From Schleiferiaceae bacterium (lineage in GTDB: Bacteria; Bacteroidota; Bacteroidia; Flavobacteriales; Schleiferiaceae), in NCBI GenBank assembly GCA_022565875.1, contig JAIULY010000008.1:1-38977 (forward strand): a stretch of 38,977 bases of DNA. The letters run 5' to 3'. This document shows, one piece after another, positions 14,414 to 26,901 of this stretch. Under the pieces are notes generated by a model that saw only the letters and a list, made by a program, of their open reading frames with translations, did not search any database and was not told the origin of the DNA. Each line of letters begins with the position of its first letter. Within the stretch, counting starts at the first letter, position 1. Both the position numbers and the translations under genes were made by a program.

Positions 14414-16210
14414 TTAAAAACAGTATTGATTTTCCTCAATCAATTTATCTGCAATTTTACGTCGTAGCGCAACAGGGTTAATTGGGTTGTTCCGTTTTGT
14501 GAAGCGTTTTAACCCCATTAGCATCATGCGCTGCTCATCACCATCTGCGAAACTGAAGATAGCTTCTTTAGCTCCAGAGGTAAGTTTTTCAATAGCATGG
14601 TTTAGGTATAAACTTGCCATATCTACTTGAAGTTGAGCGTCAACGCCACTGGAAACAAGCTTTTCAGCTCTTAAAATTGCAGATTCTGCGGTATAGATTT
14701 CTATAACCATGTCAGCTGCGGCCATCAATATTTCTTGCTGTTCATCGAGATCCATCCCGAATTTTTCTACGGCTTTCCCTGCTACCATGAGGAAGGCTTT
14801 CTTCAAGTTGGCCAAAATATCCTTTTCTTCAGATAATACTTCACTATAATCGGGTGTATTGAAATCCGGAATCGCTAATAACTCCTGGCCAACTGCCATT
14901 GCTGGAGACATTAAATCGAGCTCACCCTTCATGGCTTTGCGCAATAACATTCCAACAATCAACATTCTATTGATTTCATTCGTGCCTTCGTAGATACGAG
15001 CAATACGAATATCGCGATAAGCACTTTCCATTGTAGCATCTGCAGAATAACCCATACCTCCAAAAATTTGGACACCTTCGTCGGAAATGTGTGTACTTGC
15101 TTCTGACCCATGCACTTTTAAGATGGCGCATTCAATGGCGTACTCTTCAACGCCTTTCAATTCTGCTTCTTGGTGGGAGTGACCTTCTGATATAAGTCTT
15201 GCGATGTTGTCTTCAATATCTTTTCCTGCTCGGTATGTGGCAGACTCGGTTACCCATGCGCGCGTTGCCATTTCTCCTAGTTTAGCTTTGATGGCTCCAA
15301 AGCTACTTATTGGACGTTGAAATTGATGACGCTCGTTGGCATATTTTACGGACTCAGTGATAACCCGACGATTTGCATCCAAACAGGCCGCAGCTAATTT
15401 GATCCTTCCCACGTTCAATGAATTCATAGCTATTTTGAAACCACCGTTGCGTTCTCCTAGTAAATTTTCTACCGGAACGGCAACTTCATTGAAAAAAACC
15501 TGTCGGGTTGAGGAAGCATGGATGCCCATTTTGTGCTCTTCCTCGCCAAAACTCATACCTTCTGCTCCGCGCTCGACAATGAATCCAGTGATGTTTTTAT
15601 CGTCTTCTATCCGAGCAAACACAATGAAAACGTGAGCAAAACCTGCATTGGAAATCCACATTTTTTGCCCAGTGATTTTATAATGGCTACCATCTTCACT
15701 CAATACAGCCTTCGTACGACCACTGTTGGCATCTGACCCAGCTCCGGGCTCTGTTAAGCAATAGGCGCCAAACCACTCACCTGTTGCGAGTTTGGGTAGG
15801 TACTTTTCTTTCTGTGCGGGTGTGCCATATAATAATATGGGCAAGGTACCGATTCCAGTATGCGCACCAAAAGCTGTTGAAAGGGAACCCGTTGCTCCAG
15901 AAATGCGGTCACAAATAAGCATCGAGGTGGTAAACTTCATCCCCAATCCGCCGTATTCTTCGGGTACAGTCACTCCTAATAGACCAAGTTCGCCTGCTTT
16001 TTTCATGATTTCGAAGGTGAATTCATAATCCTTCTTCTCAAATCGTTGCTTGTTGGGCCACACTTCCTTGTCCACAAAGTCTGTGGTGGCATCGGCCATC
16101 ATGCGCTGCTCCTCGGTAAATTCCTCGGGTGTAAATATTTCATTACTGGTGGGTTGCTCTATTAAAAAAGAACCACCGACTAACTTTTTAAGTGTTGCTG
16201 AATCTGACAT
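14414..16210 (-). CDS. acyl-CoA dehydrogenase with C-terminal extension (VLCAD-like)
   Basis: A 598-residue FAD enzyme for the first step of fatty acid beta-oxidation (acyl-CoA to trans-2-enoyl-CoA). Family blocks include CLTEPGAGSDANSGRT, ITGQKMWISNAGFAHVF, the HGSEASTHISDEGVQIFGG helix and RIYEGTNEINRM, whose Glu is the catalytic base in this family. The roughly 200 residues after that motif form the extra C-terminal domain seen in very-long-chain type and ACAD9-like enzymes, so a long-chain substrate is likely but not proven. No electron transfer flavoprotein or other beta-oxidation gene is next to it. It is divergent from the outer-membrane barrel gene, with a promoter at 16248-16255 and a 12-bp palindrome just upstream. 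Confidence 0.95.
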   Translation of the reverse strand: MSDSATLKKLVGGSFLIEQPTSNEIFTPEEFTEEQRMMADATTDFVDKEVWPNKQRFEKKDYEFTFEIMKKAGELGLLGVTVPEEYGGLGMKFTTSMLICDRISGATGSLSTAFGAHTGIGTLPILLYGTPAQKEKYLPKLATGEWFGAYCLTEPGAGSDANSGRTKAVLSEDGSHYKITGQKMWISNAGFAHVFIVFARIEDDKNITGFIVERGAEGMSFGEEEHKMGIHASSTRQVFFNEVAVPVENLLGERNGGFKIAMNSLNVGRIKLAAACLDANRRVITESVKYANERHQFQRPISSFGAIKAKLGEMATRAWVTESATYRAGKDIEDNIARLISEGHSHQEAELKGVEEYAIECAILKVHGSEASTHISDEGVQIFGGMGYSADATMESAYRDIRIARIYEGTNEINRMLIVGMLLRKAMKGELDLMSPAMAVGQELLAIPDFNTPDYSEVLSEEKDILANLKKAFLMVAGKAVEKFGMDLDEQQEILMAAADMVIEIYTAESAILRAEKLVSSGVDAQLQVDMASLYLNHAIEKLTSGAKEAIFSFADGDEQRMMLMGLKRFTKRNNPINPVALRRKIADKLIEENQYCF

Positions 16211-16375: not shown

Positions 16376-19225
16376 TTGAAAAAATTAACAATAAGTATCC
16401 TGCTATTTGCTTTTAGCACACTGTCAGGATTTTCTCAGCACATGTTGCAATTGCGCATTTTAGACGCAGATAGCTTGCCTCTGCCTAGCGCGATTGGTCT
16501 TGTTTATGCAGCCAATGATACCACACTGGTTTTAGCTCAAGGAATCAGTGATCCCAATGGTTTGCTCACGATTCGACAAATACCTATTTCCAATGTATCG
16601 GTTCGAGTTCAGATGCTTGGGTATTCTCCCGAATGGAAAACGTTTTCTTTACAATCTGGGCGCAATGAAGGCGGAAATATTGTGTTGCAAACGGTAGCGG
16701 AGCTTTTGCGTGCTGCCACGGTTTCCACTACTCAAGAACGCGTTACCCTCAAGGGCGATACAACAGAAATAAACGCAGAAGCCTATAAAGTCAATCCGGA
16801 TGCGGACGCAGCTGATTTGGTAAGGAAAATGCCGGGTATCGAGATTCAAGGCGGGACGGTTAGGGCACAAGGCGAAGATGTGAAACGGGTCACTGTGGAT
16901 GGTAAGGAGTTTTTTGGCGAGGATGCCAACGTGGCGCTAAGAGCTTTGCCCGCAGATGTCATTAGTAAAATTCAAGTTTACGACCGTTTAAGTGATCAAT
17001 CGCGCTTTACGGGGTTTGATGATGGGAATACTGAAAAAACATTGAACATTATCACCAAACCAGGAACCAACAAAGGCCAGTTTGGGCGCGTATATGCCGG
17101 TGGTGGTACGGACAATAGATATCAAGCCGGTGGAAACGTCAACTTCTTTCAAGGCAAAAGACGGATTGCTCTAATTGGCCTATCTAATAATATCAATCAA
17201 CAAAACTTTAACTCACAAGATGTACTGTCTGTTACCGGTGGTAGTGGCGGTAGAAGAGGAGGGCGAGGAGGCCGACCAGGATTTGGTGCAGGGGAAAGCT
17301 TCACCGTTCCGCAACAGCCTGGTATTAATGCCACACATTCTCTAGGTATCAATTATTCTGATGAATGGGGGAGTAGGGTGAAAGTTACCGGGTCTTATTT
17401 TGGCTCTTTTGTGCAAAATCAGAATGATGCTTTTACAAATAGACAGTTTTTCCTTCGCGATCAAAGTTTACGCTTTTACACTGAGGAGCGCTATAGCAGT
17501 TCTAATGACATGAATCACCGCATTCAAATGCGCATTACCATGGAGCTAGACAGTAGCAATACTCTAATTTTAACACCAAATATATCGCTGCAATCCAATC
17601 GGTCAAACGCTGAGATACTTGGGGTTAATGCTATTGAGGCCTTCCCAAGAAATGTTTTTTTGAATAGCACAAATACATTTAATGATAACACAACGCTGGG
17701 TTATAATTTTAGAAATAGTATACTTTGGCAGCGCAAACTCAATAAAAAGGGGCGAACGCTATCTGTTGATTTACGCACGGATGTTAGCGATCGGGTAGGG
17801 CAGTTTAACTTACTTGCTGAAAATGTATTTGGGGTAGAAGATTCTGTTGTTTTCCGAAATCAACAACAGGAAAGTGTTATTGATGCTCAAAATATTTCAA
17901 CGAGTATTCGCTACACGGAACCATTGGGTGAAAAAAACGCCCTTGAAATTTCCTATGAGCCATCCTTCCGATGGAGCAGCTCATTACAATTAACAGAGGC
18001 ACTTGATCCGGTTTTTGGAAATTTTGTCGAGGATTTGGCATTGAGTAATGAGTTTGACAACCTCATTATTTCTCAAAATGCAGGATTGAGCTTTCGGCGT
18101 AATGGTGAAAAATATAACTTTTTTATCGGTGGTGAATTTCAAGATTTACAGTTATTGTCTAATCAAGTCTTTCCTGAAACCTTGGAAGTGAATAAGCGTT
18201 TCCAAAATCTCTTGCCTCGTGGATTCTTTAGATACCAATTCAGCAAACAAACACAGTTGCGCACTTTTTACAGAGCCCGAACCATCACGCCTTCCGTTCA
18301 ACAATTGCAAAATGTAGCAGACAACAGCAATCCGTTACTTTTATCTGCTGGAAATCCTAATTTAGGTCAGGCTGTAAATCATTTTAATGTGATTCGATTC
18401 AATCACACCAACACGGAGAAGGGAACCACTTTTTTTGGGTTTATGACCACACAAATCACCCAAAACTTTATAGGTAATGCAACTTTCATTGCACCAACCG
18501 ATAGTTTGTTAGCTTCGGGAATATTGCTGCCAGCAGGCGCTCAATTAAATACGCCGGAAAATCTGGGAACAGCCTATGCCATGCGGTCATACTTAACTTA
18601 TGGCATTCCGTTGCTAAAACTAAAGAGCAACATCAACTTTAATGGTGGGCTTTCTTGGCAGCAAAGTCCAGGGTTGTTAAATAATGCAAGAAACGTCTCC
18701 GATTACTATAACTTTAGTGGAGGCCTTGTTTGGGGCAGTAACATCAGTAAAGAAGTTGACTTTACGATAAGTTATTCTGGCCAATACAACATTGTTAACA
18801 ATAGTATTCAGCCTCAGTTGGACAATAACTACTACACCCATATCGTAGGGGCAACTTCTCAGTTTGCGTTATTTAAAAATTGGGTTTTACAGACAGATGC
18901 CAATCACTATACATTTACCGGATTAGGCGATGGATTTAATCAGCAGTTTCTATTGTTGAACGCAGGTATTGGCTACAAGTTTCTAAAAAATCAATCGGCC
19001 GAGTTTCGCTTAACGGTTTTTGATTTGCTGAAGCAAAACAACAGTATTATTCGAGATGTGAATGAAACTTTTATTGAAGACCGCAGAATTAGTGTGTTAC
19101 AGCGATTCTTTATGCTTACGTTTACCTATAATCTGCGCAATTTTAATCAACCCAAGCCAGATGAAAACGCAACCAATTATCCCCCGAGAATGGGAGGAAG
19201 ACCACCGGGAGTTTTGGGCGGATAA
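16376..19225 (+). CDS. outer-membrane beta-barrel protein, TonB-receptor-like
   Basis: A 949-residue outer-membrane protein. The signal peptide is residues 1-21 (ending GFSQ). A short carboxypeptidase-regulatory-like beta domain (about 25-105) precedes a plug-like segment (about 115-225, including VRKMPGIEIQ and VDGKEFFGED), and the rest is a large barrel of the type annotated as outer membrane beta-barrel family 3. A Gly/Arg-rich insert lies at about 287-302 and the C-terminus has a Pro/Gly-rich tail. No clear TonB box was identified and the substrate is unknown. The start is TTG: no in-frame ATG lies between the upstream stop and the signal peptide, and the next ATG (codon 22) would remove the signal peptide. 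Confidence 0.88.
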   Translation: MKKLTISILLFAFSTLSGFSQHMLQLRILDADSLPLPSAIGLVYAANDTTLVLAQGISDPNGLLTIRQIPISNVSVRVQMLGYSPEWKTFSLQSGRNEGGNIVLQTVAELLRAATVSTTQERVTLKGDTTEINAEAYKVNPDADAADLVRKMPGIEIQGGTVRAQGEDVKRVTVDGKEFFGEDANVALRALPADVISKIQVYDRLSDQSRFTGFDDGNTEKTLNIITKPGTNKGQFGRVYAGGGTDNRYQAGGNVNFFQGKRRIALIGLSNNINQQNFNSQDVLSVTGGSGGRRGGRGGRPGFGAGESFTVPQQPGINATHSLGINYSDEWGSRVKVTGSYFGSFVQNQNDAFTNRQFFLRDQSLRFYTEERYSSSNDMNHRIQMRITMELDSSNTLILTPNISLQSNRSNAEILGVNAIEAFPRNVFLNSTNTFNDNTTLGYNFRNSILWQRKLNKKGRTLSVDLRTDVSDRVGQFNLLAENVFGVEDSVVFRNQQQESVIDAQNISTSIRYTEPLGEKNALEISYEPSFRWSSSLQLTEALDPVFGNFVEDLALSNEFDNLIISQNAGLSFRRNGEKYNFFIGGEFQDLQLLSNQVFPETLEVNKRFQNLLPRGFFRYQFSKQTQLRTFYRARTITPSVQQLQNVADNSNPLLLSAGNPNLGQAVNHFNVIRFNHTNTEKGTTFFGFMTTQITQNFIGNATFIAPTDSLLASGILLPAGAQLNTPENLGTAYAMRSYLTYGIPLLKLKSNINFNGGLSWQQSPGLLNNARNVSDYYNFSGGLVWGSNISKEVDFTISYSGQYNIVNNSIQPQLDNNYYTHIVGATSQFALFKNWVLQTDANHYTFTGLGDGFNQQFLLLNAGIGYKFLKNQSAEFRLTVFDLLKQNNSIIRDVNETFIEDRRISVLQRFFMLTFTYNLRNFNQPKPDENATNYPPRMGGRPPGVLGG

Positions 19226-19254
19226 AATAAACAACACTGTTAGAAGATTTTTGG

Positions 19255-19336
19255 AAAAAAGAGCCGGCGCAGGGAAAAGGGGGGAAGGGAAGAAAGCGCC
19301 GACTCTCAGGGAATTTTTCTTTGATGATTCTTTAAC
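19255..19336 (-). ncRNA. candidate minus-strand small RNA ending in a terminator
   Basis: In minus-strand RNA, AGAGTCGGCGC and GCGCCGGCTCT (19306-19296 and 19270-19260) pair over 11 bp including one U-G wobble, around a 25-base loop made only of C and U, and are followed at once by a run of U (six, counting the last stem base). This is terminator-like on the minus strand, where no protein gene lies nearby. An exact -7 element (TACATTTG, minus) at 19342-19349 would start an RNA near 19336, about 80 bases long. The -33 element is missing and nothing shows transcription. On the plus strand the same stem has a C-A mismatch and no adjacent U-run. Confidence 0.25.
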
Positions 19337-19658
19337 TGCAACAAATGTAAGTATGCTTGAGGGAATCATTCAGTGGTCCTTTTGCGAATTGCGTGTAAAA
19401 TTTTCCCTTTATTGTTGTAGATAGATAACTAAGAAAAAGTTATTTTCATAAGTAAAACACTTCTTTTGCTGTTGTGTTTTTCAATTGGCTATGAATGCAT
19501 TTGCAAAAAGAAGAATTTACATCAGTTATTTGACTTTCTTCAAAATTTTAAAATACGCTTTTCATTCGTGTGCTCCTATTTTTGTGTGCTGTTTGGAGTT
19601 TGATAGGTATTTCACATCCACCTAAAAAAGAAACACATTAAATTTCAAACTAGATCGC

Positions 19659-19666
19659 TATCTTTG
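19659..19666 (+). promoter_or_regulatory. -7 element for the T9SS type A protein gene
   Basis: TATCTTTG matches TAnnTTTG exactly, 42 bases before the ATG at 19709. No clear -33 element. Its position argues against translation starting at the upstream TTG (19664). Confidence 0.45.
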
Positions 19667-19708
19667 TTGCCTACGAAGTATTTAACATCGCTTTATAAAT
19701 GTAATCAC

Positions 19709-21805
19709 ATGGTAAAACAACTATTCTTGAGCATTTTAATGTTTTTTTCAGGGGTAACCTTTGCGCAAACTCAATTTCTTATTGAAAAAATTGCTGAGGT
19801 AGATCCAAAGAGTTATGATCCTGGTTTTGAAGCCAGGATTGATAATTTGGAGGCACCAGTTCCTGGGGGCGAAAGTTATCGTGGTTTTCTACGTGAACAG
19901 AAGGTGAAAGTTCGCGAAATGTTTCCGTTACAACCCGCGGCTCCAATACAGAATAAAACACAAAGCATGGAACCTGGACTTTTACAAGGATTTGTGCCTG
20001 CGCGACGCTTTCCTGCCGGAAATACATTACCGCTGACAGGGGGCATTCCCAATGATAATACCTTAGCTATTTCTAATGATGGCATTCTACTTATAGCCAT
20101 AAATTCTGTAGTGTGGGCCTATGACACAAAAAATGATAGTGTGTTGTTTCCCAACACTGTTGTAGCGCTTCAAACGTTTGCTGATGGCTCTGCTAATCAC
20201 AGCTATTACGACCCAAAGCTCTATTACGATGAAGATGCAGATCGCTTTATTCTAACTTTTCTTCGTGATAATCGCCCCAATACCAGCCAAGTCATCATGT
20301 GCTTTTCTAGTTCCAATAACCCAACAGACCCTTGGAATGCTTATGTGATACCTGGGAATCCATTAAATAACAATCGTTGGACGGACTTCCCGGCTTTGGC
20401 GACAACTAAAGATGAGGTGTTTTACACCGCCAATTTAATCATACCCGATGTGAGTTGGCAAGTTGGTTTTGATGGTTCTGTTATTTGGCAGCTCGATAAA
20501 TTTGCTGGATATGCTGGAAATGCGACCCTGCCGTCTAAGCTTTGGAGCGATGTGCGTCATAATGGCCGCTTTACCAGAAACCTCTTTCCTGTTCCAGGGG
20601 CTGCAGGCGATGCCGAGGACATCTTTTTTCTCTCGAATCGAAATTTTGATTTACAGAACGATACGTTTTTTGTAGCGCATATCACCGGTAAGTTAGATGA
20701 CCCAAACGCCGCTCTTGAAGTGAAGGCTGTTGTAGCTGATGTGCCGTATGGATTAGCTCCAAATGGACGCCAAGCCAATACCGTTTTGACAGATCCAACG
20801 AGCGGTTTAGATATCAATGACGCGCGTGTTTTGGGTGGCTTTTTGCTTGATGACCAAATTCAATTCACCTCCACAGCGGTTAATCCCGCAACGGGTCTTG
20901 CTGCAATTTACCATGGCGTCTTAAATGACCCCAAAGGTAACACCTCCATTGATGGAACCATACTTGGCGACCCTACTTTGGATATCGCTTACCCCAATAT
21001 TGTTTGGACAGGAATAGATAAGTGTCAAAAGCAAGCAATGATAGGCTTTAATTACACCTCTCCAAATGACTTCGCAGGGGTAGCTGCCATATTCTATGAC
21101 AATCAAGGGAATTATTCCAACTTAAAACGCCTCAAAGAAGGTGAAAATATCATCAATCGCATTCCGGGAACTTATGATAGGTGGGGGGATTACTTTGGTT
21201 TGCAACGCGTATTTAATGACCCAAGAAAAGTTTTTGCTGCGGGTATGTTTGGTTTGCAAAATAATTTGTCCGGAACTTTTGTAGCAGAACTCATTTCACC
21301 TGACACCATGCTTTTGGAGGGAGCCATAGCTTTTACTGGTAACCCTGCATTTTGTCAAGGTGTGGCTACAGCTACTGGGATTGGCGGGGTGCCACCCTAC
21401 ACCTATGAATGGTTGTCTCCTCTTGGTTCCACCAATGAAATAGCCTCAGGAATTTGCTCCAATGACAAAGTTTCTGTTCGCATTACAGACGCAACAGGAT
21501 GCGAAACTATTGTATCTGCCGATGTGCTGCCCGCAGCAATTGCAGCTCCTCCGCTTGCTTATCCTTCGCCTTTTGTCAATCAAGTGGCCGTACAATTTGA
21601 GTTGCCAAGAGACCAAGAAATCGTTGCACGTATTTATACCTTACAAGGTCAATTAGTGGATGAAGTCATCCGCAAGTCGGCAAAAGCTGGTCTAAACGAG
21701 TTAACATTTTTTACTGAACCATTAAGCAGCGGTACCTATGTTTTAGTGATTAGTGTAGAAAACCGCGAAATATTTTCTCAAAAAATAATTAAACAAGACC
21801 CATAA
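19709..21805 (+). CDS. secreted protein with T9SS type A sorting domain
   Basis: A 698-residue exported protein of unknown function. It has a signal peptide (about 1-20, ending TFAQ), a long central region with repeated beta-strand blocks and Asp/Asn-rich turns that looks like a beta-propeller or sialidase-like fold, one SprB-like repeat near residues 550-610 (GGVPPYTYEWLSP then RITDATGCE), and a C-terminal domain of about 80 residues beginning AYPSPFVNQVAVQF and ending in a short Lys-containing strand. That last domain is the type A sorting signal removed by the type IX secretion sortase at the cell surface. I see no catalytic motif. The stop is 2 bases before the TTG start of the next gene, so the pair is probably translationally coupled. 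The start at 19709 is the ATG that begins the signal peptide. Confidence 0.88.
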   Translation: MVKQLFLSILMFFSGVTFAQTQFLIEKIAEVDPKSYDPGFEARIDNLEAPVPGGESYRGFLREQKVKVREMFPLQPAAPIQNKTQSMEPGLLQGFVPARRFPAGNTLPLTGGIPNDNTLAISNDGILLIAINSVVWAYDTKNDSVLFPNTVVALQTFADGSANHSYYDPKLYYDEDADRFILTFLRDNRPNTSQVIMCFSSSNNPTDPWNAYVIPGNPLNNNRWTDFPALATTKDEVFYTANLIIPDVSWQVGFDGSVIWQLDKFAGYAGNATLPSKLWSDVRHNGRFTRNLFPVPGAAGDAEDIFFLSNRNFDLQNDTFFVAHITGKLDDPNAALEVKAVVADVPYGLAPNGRQANTVLTDPTSGLDINDARVLGGFLLDDQIQFTSTAVNPATGLAAIYHGVLNDPKGNTSIDGTILGDPTLDIAYPNIVWTGIDKCQKQAMIGFNYTSPNDFAGVAAIFYDNQGNYSNLKRLKEGENIINRIPGTYDRWGDYFGLQRVFNDPRKVFAAGMFGLQNNLSGTFVAELISPDTMLLEGAIAFTGNPAFCQGVATATGIGGVPPYTYEWLSPLGSTNEIASGICSNDKVSVRITDATGCETIVSADVLPAAIAAPPLAYPSPFVNQVAVQFELPRDQEIVARIYTLQGQLVDEVIRKSAKAGLNELTFFTEPLSSGTYVLVISVENREIFSQKIIKQDP

Positions 21806-24714: not shown

Positions 24715-26901
24715 TTAATTGGCAATTTCGCTCATAAATTTCAAGCGAACTAATCGGAGTTCTTCCTCCGTATAGTCACCATCAAATTCATGATAAGCTT
24801 CAATTAAATCGCCTGTTTCTGAGTCTTCTAAGAAATAGTCGAATATTTCTTCTATTGAATCTTCATCTAAAATATCTTTGAGGTAATAGTCGATGTTGAA
24901 TCGCGTTCCAGAATTAACAATCATTTCCATTTCATTGAGCAGTTCGTCAATTTTCAGCCCTTTGGCTGCTGCAATGTCTGGTAAGGGTATTTTTCTATCT
25001 GTACTTTGGATAATATAGACTTTTATCGCCGATTTATTCGCTACACTCTTGAAGACCATTTCCATAGACCGGTCTATGTTGTTGTCTTCAATGTATTTGT
25101 TAATGATTTGCAAAAATGGCTCACCAAATTTTTTAGCTTTTCCTTCTCCAACACCAGAAATATTTTTCAATTCATCCATATTAATAGGATAGTGTGTTGC
25201 CATTTCCGCAAGAGAGTTTTCTTGGAAAACCGCATAAGGCGGGACATTTTTTCGTTTCGCTTCTTTACGGGTTAAATCTTTGAGCATGTTAAAGAGCGTT
25301 TGGTCGAGCGCTGTGGCTCTTCCGCTTGCGCTTGATGCGTCTTCGCTATCGTCAGTGATTTCATGTTCCTCACTGATAATGAATTCAACAGGATTTTCGA
25401 TGAATTTCCGTCCTTTGTCGGTAAGACTTAAAACGCCGTAGGTTTCTATATTTTTACTCATATATCCGCTGACGACAGCTTGACGGATGATATTATCCCA
25501 GAATGGTTCACCATGCTCGGCACCTTGGCCAAAATGTTCGCCTTCATCGGCGCGTTGTGCTTTGATACGACTCGTTGCCTTACCTTGTAAAATATTGATA
25601 ACCTCGGGACCTTTAAAGCGGTCATGCGTTTCTTTTACAATTTCCAAAATAGGGACAAGATATTCTTGGGCATCAAATTTTTTGCGTGGATGCCTACAGT
25701 TGTCACACATCGAATTACAGTTTTCATCGCTGTAATATTCACCAAAATAGTGCAACAAGAACTTGCGTCGACACATCGAAGTTTCGGCGTAGCCCAGCGC
25801 TTCTTGCAGCAATTGCTTTCCGATTTCTTGCTCAGCTACAGGTTTTTTGCTCAAGAACTTCTCTAGTTTCTCAATATCTTTTGCAGAAAAGAAAGTGATG
25901 CAATTCCCTTCTCCGCCATCTCGCCCCGCTCTACCCGTTTCCTGATAGTAGCTTTCCAAGCTTTTGGGCATGTCATGGTGAATAACGAAGCGGACATCTG
26001 GTTTATCGATACCCATACCAAACGCAATGGTAGCTACAATGACATCCACGTCCTCCATCAAAAACTGATCTTGATGGCGTGCCCGTGTGTTGGCATCTAG
26101 TCCGGCGTGGTAGGGGAGTGCCTTTATGCCATTTACCTGCAAGGCTTGCGCAATGTCCTCTACTTTTTGACGCGACAAGCAGTAAATTATGCCGCTTTTT
26201 CCAGGGAATTTTTTAACGTACTTAATGATTTCCTTTTCGATGTTGACTTTCGGTCGTATTTCATAATAGAGATTGGCACGATTGAAGGAAGATTTGAAAA
26301 CGCGCGCATTTTCCATTCCCAAGGTCTTTAGTATATCTGATTGCACCTTGGGGGTTGCTGTTGCCGTAAGTCCAATGACAGGTTTGCGTCCAATTTTATT
26401 TATGGCAGCGCGCAAGTTGCGGTATTCCGGCCTAAAGTCATGTCCCCATTCAGAGATACAATGGGCTTCATCAATAGCAAAGAAAGAGATTTGAATGCTC
26501 TGTAAAAACTCGATGTTTTCATCTTTGTTGAGTGATTCTGGAGCTACATACAGTAATTTGGTGACTCCATTGACCAAGTCTTCCTTAACTTGAATGACCT
26601 CTCGCTTAGTTAAAGAGGAGTTTAAAACATGTGCGATGCCATATTCTGTAGAAATGCCCCGCATGCTGTCTACTTGATTTTTCATCAAAGCAATTAGGGG
26701 ACTAATAACGATTGCGGTACCTTCAGCCAGTAGTGCTGGCAATTGATAACAAAGCGATTTCCCACCGCCTGTTGGCATTATTACGAAGGTATCTTCGCCA
26801 TTCATTAAACTCTCAATGATGGGTTCTTGATTGCCTTTGAATTTATCGAACCCAAAAAATCGTTTCAAATGATCTGTCGCAGATAAGGTAACTTCCGCCA
26901 T
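24715..26901 (-). CDS. recQ: ATP-dependent DNA helicase RecQ
   Basis: A 728-residue 3'-5' DNA helicase for recombination and repair. Walker A is MPTGGGKS (K48), the DEAH box is in AIDEAHCISEWGHDF near residue 140, and motif VI is QETGRAGRDG. The RecQ zinc-binding region has four Cys (CRRKFLLHYFGE and CNSMCDNC), followed by the RQC winged helix, an HRDC domain (about 525-605) and a further acidic helical extension of about 120 residues. The extension is longer than E. coli RecQ but common in Bacteroidota. The gene is divergent from tatC. No strong promoter was seen close to the ATG; a TAATTTTG match lies 123 bases upstream. Confidence 0.97.
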   Translation of the reverse strand: MAEVTLSATDHLKRFFGFDKFKGNQEPIIESLMNGEDTFVIMPTGGGKSLCYQLPALLAEGTAIVISPLIALMKNQVDSMRGISTEYGIAHVLNSSLTKREVIQVKEDLVNGVTKLLYVAPESLNKDENIEFLQSIQISFFAIDEAHCISEWGHDFRPEYRNLRAAINKIGRKPVIGLTATATPKVQSDILKTLGMENARVFKSSFNRANLYYEIRPKVNIEKEIIKYVKKFPGKSGIIYCLSRQKVEDIAQALQVNGIKALPYHAGLDANTRARHQDQFLMEDVDVIVATIAFGMGIDKPDVRFVIHHDMPKSLESYYQETGRAGRDGGEGNCITFFSAKDIEKLEKFLSKKPVAEQEIGKQLLQEALGYAETSMCRRKFLLHYFGEYYSDENCNSMCDNCRHPRKKFDAQEYLVPILEIVKETHDRFKGPEVINILQGKATSRIKAQRADEGEHFGQGAEHGEPFWDNIIRQAVVSGYMSKNIETYGVLSLTDKGRKFIENPVEFIISEEHEITDDSEDASSASGRATALDQTLFNMLKDLTRKEAKRKNVPPYAVFQENSLAEMATHYPINMDELKNISGVGEGKAKKFGEPFLQIINKYIEDNNIDRSMEMVFKSVANKSAIKVYIIQSTDRKIPLPDIAAAKGLKIDELLNEMEMIVNSGTRFNIDYYLKDILDEDSIEEIFDYFLEDSETGDLIEAYHEFDGDYTEEELRLVRLKFMSEIAN

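Follow-up and report, generated by a model that had tools for sequence, protein, structure and literature searches.

The small RNA RepG of Helicobacter pylori has a length of about 87 nt. RepG (HPnc5490) is encoded in an intergenic region and acts through the C/U-rich loop of its terminator hairpin (PMC8295292). C-rich apical loops are likewise described for sX13 of Xanthomonas and for the UCCC-loop sRNAs of Staphylococcus aureus, where they act on G-rich mRNA sites (PMC3771888). Bacteroidota are described as lacking classical Shine-Dalgarno sequences, and the same source gives lengths of 78-128 nt for members of the DonS family of Bacteroides (PMC7366714).

Here we analyzed a hairpin with an all-pyrimidine loop in a Schleiferiaceae bacterium, a member of the Bacteroidota. 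The genome consists of 312 contigs with 3.15 Mb, and the window, the whole stretch of DNA analyzed, comprises 38,977 nucleotides. The hairpin lies in a gap of 438 bases between two plus-strand genes, and its stem begins shortly downstream of the stop codon of the first one. Its features are listed in Table 1.

Table 1. Features of the hairpin locus; coordinates are those of the window.
Feature	Position	Strand	Remarks
Outer membrane beta-barrel protein gene (upstream gene)	16376..19225	+	PF14905 (OMP_b-brl_3)
U-tract directly after the minus-strand stem	19255..19260	-	Reads A6 on plus; the last stem pair is formed with the first U
Putative 83-nt noncoding transcript	19255..19337	-	Predicted from box and terminator
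Stem-loop	19260..19306	-	11 bp, of which 10 are standard pairs and one is G-U; loop of 25 nt, C and U only
Homopyrimidine loop UUUCUUCCCUUCCCCCCUUUUCCCU	19271..19295	-	25/25 bases C or U; all purine on plus
Plus-side flank CAGGGAATTTTT	19307..19318	+	T-run begins seven bases past the stem
Promoter-like box TACATTTG	19349..19342	-	Exact TAnnTTTG -7 box of Bacteroidota; no TTTG at -33
Plausible -7 box for the downstream gene, TATCTTTG	19659..19666	+	
Secreted protein gene with Por_Secre_tail (downstream gene)	ORF 19664..21805; ATG at 19709	+	PF18962

The stem is formed by the arms AGAGCCGGCGC (19260-19270) and GCGCCGACTCT (19296-19306) and is GC-rich, with seven of the eleven pairs being G-C. 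At the pair 19264/19302 the plus strand carries a C-A mismatch, which is a G-U pair on the minus strand. On the plus strand the T-run comes seven bases late, leaving this strand without a normal terminator tail. The first-pass annotation had described an 11-bp GC-rich stem with one wobble around a 25-base purine/pyrimidine loop, followed directly by a U-run on the minus strand only, and had stated that no minus-strand gene lies nearby. Inspection of the sequence agrees with this on all counts, including the A6 at 19255-19260 of the plus strand; the closest gene-length minus-strand ORFs are found at 14414-16210 and 24715-26901.

Folding energies differ between the strands: the stem-loop alone reaches -19.6 kcal/mol on the minus strand and -14.5 kcal/mol on the plus strand, making the minus form 5.1 kcal/mol more stable. 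For the minus-strand region 19240-19345 the z-score is -3.14, a fold matched by 2 of 200 shuffles. The putative 83-nt minus RNA reaches -21.4 kcal/mol, with a z-score of likewise -3.14 and a match by 1 of 200 shuffles, whereas the plus-strand region 19226-19331 folds at the level of its shuffles (z 0.18), 109 of 200 being as good. The hairpin is terminator-like and real. That it faces the minus strand is supported by the direct U-run, the better fold and the G-U pair where the plus strand has C-A, and the hairpin is probably meant for that strand. A G-quadruplex in the plus-strand loop was also considered and found no support, the energies with and without it being -14.6 and -14.5 kcal/mol.

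To judge how unusual the site is within its genome, a sample consisting of the window and 99 of 100 further stretches (L119 was left out) was used, covering 1,689,061 of 3,153,901 bases. As genes, all scans used naive ORFs with a minimum of 100 aa, a definition that misses small genes and gives rough starts, and the intergenic part comprised 746 stretches, each 40 bases or longer and together 173,553 bases. These contain four hairpins, this site among them, that combine 10 or more pairs with a loop of 15-30, a T5 tail and seven or more GC pairs, compared to a mean of 0.1 in ten dinucleotide shuffles. When all T5-tailed long-loop hairpins are counted, overlapping variants included, the numbers are 20 versus 2.0. 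The combination of a GC-rich long-loop hairpin with a T-run is more than chance; stems alone are less rare, with 81 non-redundant hairpins of at least seven GC pairs in the intergenic sample, among which 23 have loops of 20-40. Purine runs of at least 24 bases are present at four places on both strands of the complete 3,153,901 bases (two A-rich runs, one poly-G contig end and this loop), and the hairpin loop is the sole intergenic one in the 1.69-Mb sample.

Several other elements were noticed in these scans. Contig C234 starts with 29 bases of poly-C/poly-G (positions 1-29), which is probably a sequencing artefact. Within the window, between two minus-strand genes, lies a hairpin of 21 bp (1706-1751) that has a GAAA loop on the minus strand and no trailing T5 run. 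A repeat about 95 bases long is dispersed in the genome (for example L164:570-680 on contig C40) and was found at 41 or more places at E <= 0.001, with 40 of 84 candidates scored; it contains an imperfect 12-bp stem with a 28-nt loop and could be a REP-like element or a small mobile element of the non-autonomous type. Two G8 runs are located just ahead of its copies on contigs C49 and C15.

The best reading of the site, which we hold tentatively, is that an intrinsic terminator on the minus strand ends a short noncoding RNA, about 83 nt long if the promoter-like box is used. Transcription, start site and termination are here predicted from the sequence. RNA polymerase would start near 19337, five bases past the TACATTTG box, and the 5' part of about 30 nt would be mostly unstructured. 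The hairpin would then form, the polymerase would stop in the U-tract at about 19255, and the loop of 25 C and U residues would be exposed.

The predicted start depends on the placement of the -7 box at -12 to -5 given in PMC9723704, from which a start near 19337 and an RNA of about 83 nt follow. The first-pass annotation had placed an exact -7 element 36 bases before the stem; the element is present, but the spacing is 35 bases (19341-19307). It had also noted a missing -33 box, and indeed the best match has two of four letters. Ahead of 339 gene-facing TAnnTTTG sites in this genome no clear TTTG peak was found at the -33 spacing, so that the absence of a -33 box is weak evidence against a transcript. 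In gaps, the density of TAnnTTTG ahead of a gene (one per 464 strand-bases) is about threefold that in places with no gene downstream (one per 1365), and the box is therefore informative in this genome. With 104 boxes per 141,913 strand-bases lacking a downstream gene, the chance of finding one within 120 bases is roughly 1 in 10, which makes the box weak evidence for a transcript; upstream boxes at this distance or less are present at 3 of 13 T5-tailed hairpins without an upstream same-strand gene (orphan sites) and at 6 of 111 gene-end sites. The transcript of about 80 bases with its own terminator that had been proposed from the first reading is possible, since box and terminator together would give 83 nt. 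Two ORFs were considered as a small protein at the site and rejected: the 90-aa minus-strand ORF stayed below every Pfam cut-off (best E 0.037), as did the 120-aa plus-strand ORF.

T5-tailed hairpins mark transcript ends in this genome, because 111 of 124 sites counted by strand are located downstream of a same-strand gene and 13 are orphan. Loops of at least 15 are found at 16 of the 124 sites, nine of which lie behind a gene. The orphan share is 7 of 16 among long-loop sites and 6 of 108 among short-loop sites; this is expected if some long-loop sites are chance, and it counts against a short RNA here. The loop of 25 nt is long for a terminator, which counts against it as well, and a pattern scan for terminators with loops of 3-8 gave no hit at 18700-20000. 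Two other orphan T5-tailed hairpins are strong and have loops of 4 bases (L199:11790-11829 and L133:7325-7350). They were observed in gaps of about 560 bases, the former with a TAnnTTTG box 90 bases upstream, and as small-RNA candidates both may be more promising than the site described here.

A serious alternative, already named in the first-pass annotation but rather unlikely, is an orphan minus-strand terminator that halts spurious or read-through antisense transcription before it reaches the 3' end of the outer membrane protein gene, with neither a defined RNA nor a loop function. The evidence from stem and tail applies to it in the same way, and the 12 further T5-tailed hairpins without an upstream same-strand gene form a small recurrent class to which the site would belong. 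Antisense starts are common in Bacteroidota, as 24% of the transcription start sites reported for B. thetaiotaomicron are antisense (PMC7366714). An orphan terminator does not, however, account for a promoter-like box at a distance that would give a short RNA, and it leaves the very rare homopyrimidine loop unexplained. We scanned 439 co-directional gaps, scoring the tail beside the GC core, and obtained 65 sense, 19 two-sided and 13 antisense-only sites, compared to shuffle means of 6.3, 0.4 and 6.6, respectively. The antisense-only class is, at 13 versus 6.6, at most about twofold over chance, which counts against the short RNA; that this site has the second-best score of the 13 members speaks for it.

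The same counts speak for an explanation on the other strand, since sense and two-sided sites (65 + 19) far outnumber antisense-only ones (13) in co-directional gaps. The hairpin could belong to the 3' end of the plus-strand outer membrane protein mRNA, as a former or imperfect terminator whose plus-strand tail was lost, or as a hairpin protecting the 3' end; we regard this as unlikely, though still a serious alternative. Its stem lies 34 bases past the stop codon, a distance that is usual for gene-end stems in this genome (median 22 bases from the stop, n=111), and the flanking A-run and T-run would let the plus-strand RNA add A-U pairs. Against this stand the C-A mismatch and late T-run described above, as well as the plus-strand folding, which is at shuffle level for the region and weaker than that of the minus strand for the stem-loop. 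A contig end in poly-G/poly-C is a known type of sequencing artefact. A low-complexity or assembly by-product, that is a GGGAA-like tract grown by slippage between accidental arms or an erroneous consensus in a metagenomic contig, is highly improbable: the loop does resemble an imperfect GGGAA repeat, AGGGAA recurs at 19286, 19308 and 19360, and the same assembly has a 29-base poly-G/poly-C contig end, but a purine repeat alone is not expected to give eleven pairs and a directly joined U-run, and the contig measures 39 kb and has the site in its interior, at 19 kb from the end.

For the conservation analysis, genomes of family- and order-level relatives were compared. At the gathering score, none of 4227 Rfam families matched at the site; with a lax threshold a single microRNA match appeared, far below the cut-off and elsewhere in the gap. 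When the gap (19200-19712) was compared at the DNA level with 88 family genomes, no match covered the stem-loop, and four other genomes had matches 36-39 bases long (E between 3.5e-4 and 8.3e-4); one at 19317-19355 (genome G108, 82%) was taken as chance. The first-pass annotation had suggested a covariance search in related genomes. The model used for it (R1) was built from two copies of one sequence and run with strict filters, and it found no relative in 88 family genomes and 196 order genomes, the latter including at least 20 of the family. Matches appeared in 2 of 87 other family genomes (E 0.07 and 0.099), neither convincing, and in one of 195 other order genomes (E 0.042), also not convincing; these E-values are per genome, and all three matches are therefore expected by chance. 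With genomes related at the family and order level, this result is not a refutation.

The neighborhood of the upstream gene was followed through its protein relatives, which belong to the Bacteroidota. Among 80 listed of at least 579 loci encoding a relative, none exceeded 45% identity, and the best identity in 60 relatives was 41%. Downstream regions were taken from 102 of 109 loci, seven loci with partial matches being left out, and 97 of these regions were long enough. T4-tailed hairpins were absent from 74 of the 97, present in sense orientation only in 13, in antisense orientation only in five and in both in five, and no loop like that of the site was found in any of them; pyrimidine runs of at least 16 occur in three, without such a hairpin. 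Since protein identity to the relatives is low (no more than 45% among the loci listed), the absence of conservation in all these searches is weak evidence against a function. The pattern GCNN followed by 20 purines is present in at least 66 of 88 family genomes among the matches listed; when 20 selected purine runs of the family were scored as purine-strand hairpins, none reached the score of the site, the best one being 11 versus 15 (plus) and 20 (minus) for the site.

By analogy to RepG, a lineage-specific RNA of about 83 nt with a C/U terminator loop could pair with G-rich leaders, as an independent counterpart in Bacteroidota; we consider this very doubtful. Pairing of the C-rich loop with G-rich sites had been put forward from the first reading of the sequence, and the target analysis lent it no support. 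Over 1289 naive gene starts, from about half of the genome, the best duplex between the loop and a target has -27.7 kcal/mol, and 2 of 15 shuffled loops reach that value too. Across 1281 windows near gene starts (again about half of the genome), G6 runs are no commoner than C6 runs (9 versus 12). Exact 10- to 12-mers of the loop complement were sought elsewhere in the sample, yielding two 12-mers, both within ORFs.

If the minus-strand RNA is transcribed, it would be a small RNA without a described family, with a layout like that of RepG, in a phylum without classical Shine-Dalgarno mRNAs, and it would raise the question of what a C-rich loop pairs with in Bacteroidota. If it is not, the site would be a clean terminator-like hairpin facing away from all neighboring genes and a useful yardstick for terminator-based sRNA screens.

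With an ordinary intrinsic terminator the site shares a GC-rich stem that is immediately followed by a U-run; the ordinary loop measures a few bases, in contrast to 25 nt here, and at this site there is no same-strand gene in need of a terminator. DonS-type antisense RNAs are, as far as described, also short Bacteroidota RNAs opposite an outer membrane protein gene. They are divergently encoded and antisense to susC homologues, whereas the putative RNA would lie in the gap past the 3' end of the OMP_b-brl_3 gene without overlapping the coding region. The C-rich loop resembles those of sX13 and the S. aureus UCCC sRNAs; those RNAs, however, have several stem-loops, and some of the RNAs act at G-rich ribosome-binding sites, and the site here has a single hairpin. 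RepG has the C/U-rich terminator loop in common with the site and would be of similar length. The tlpB leader, with its homopolymeric G-repeat, is the target of RepG, whereas no enrichment of G-repeats was found near the gene starts here. RepG also comes from another phylum and has no apparent sequence relation to the putative RNA described here.
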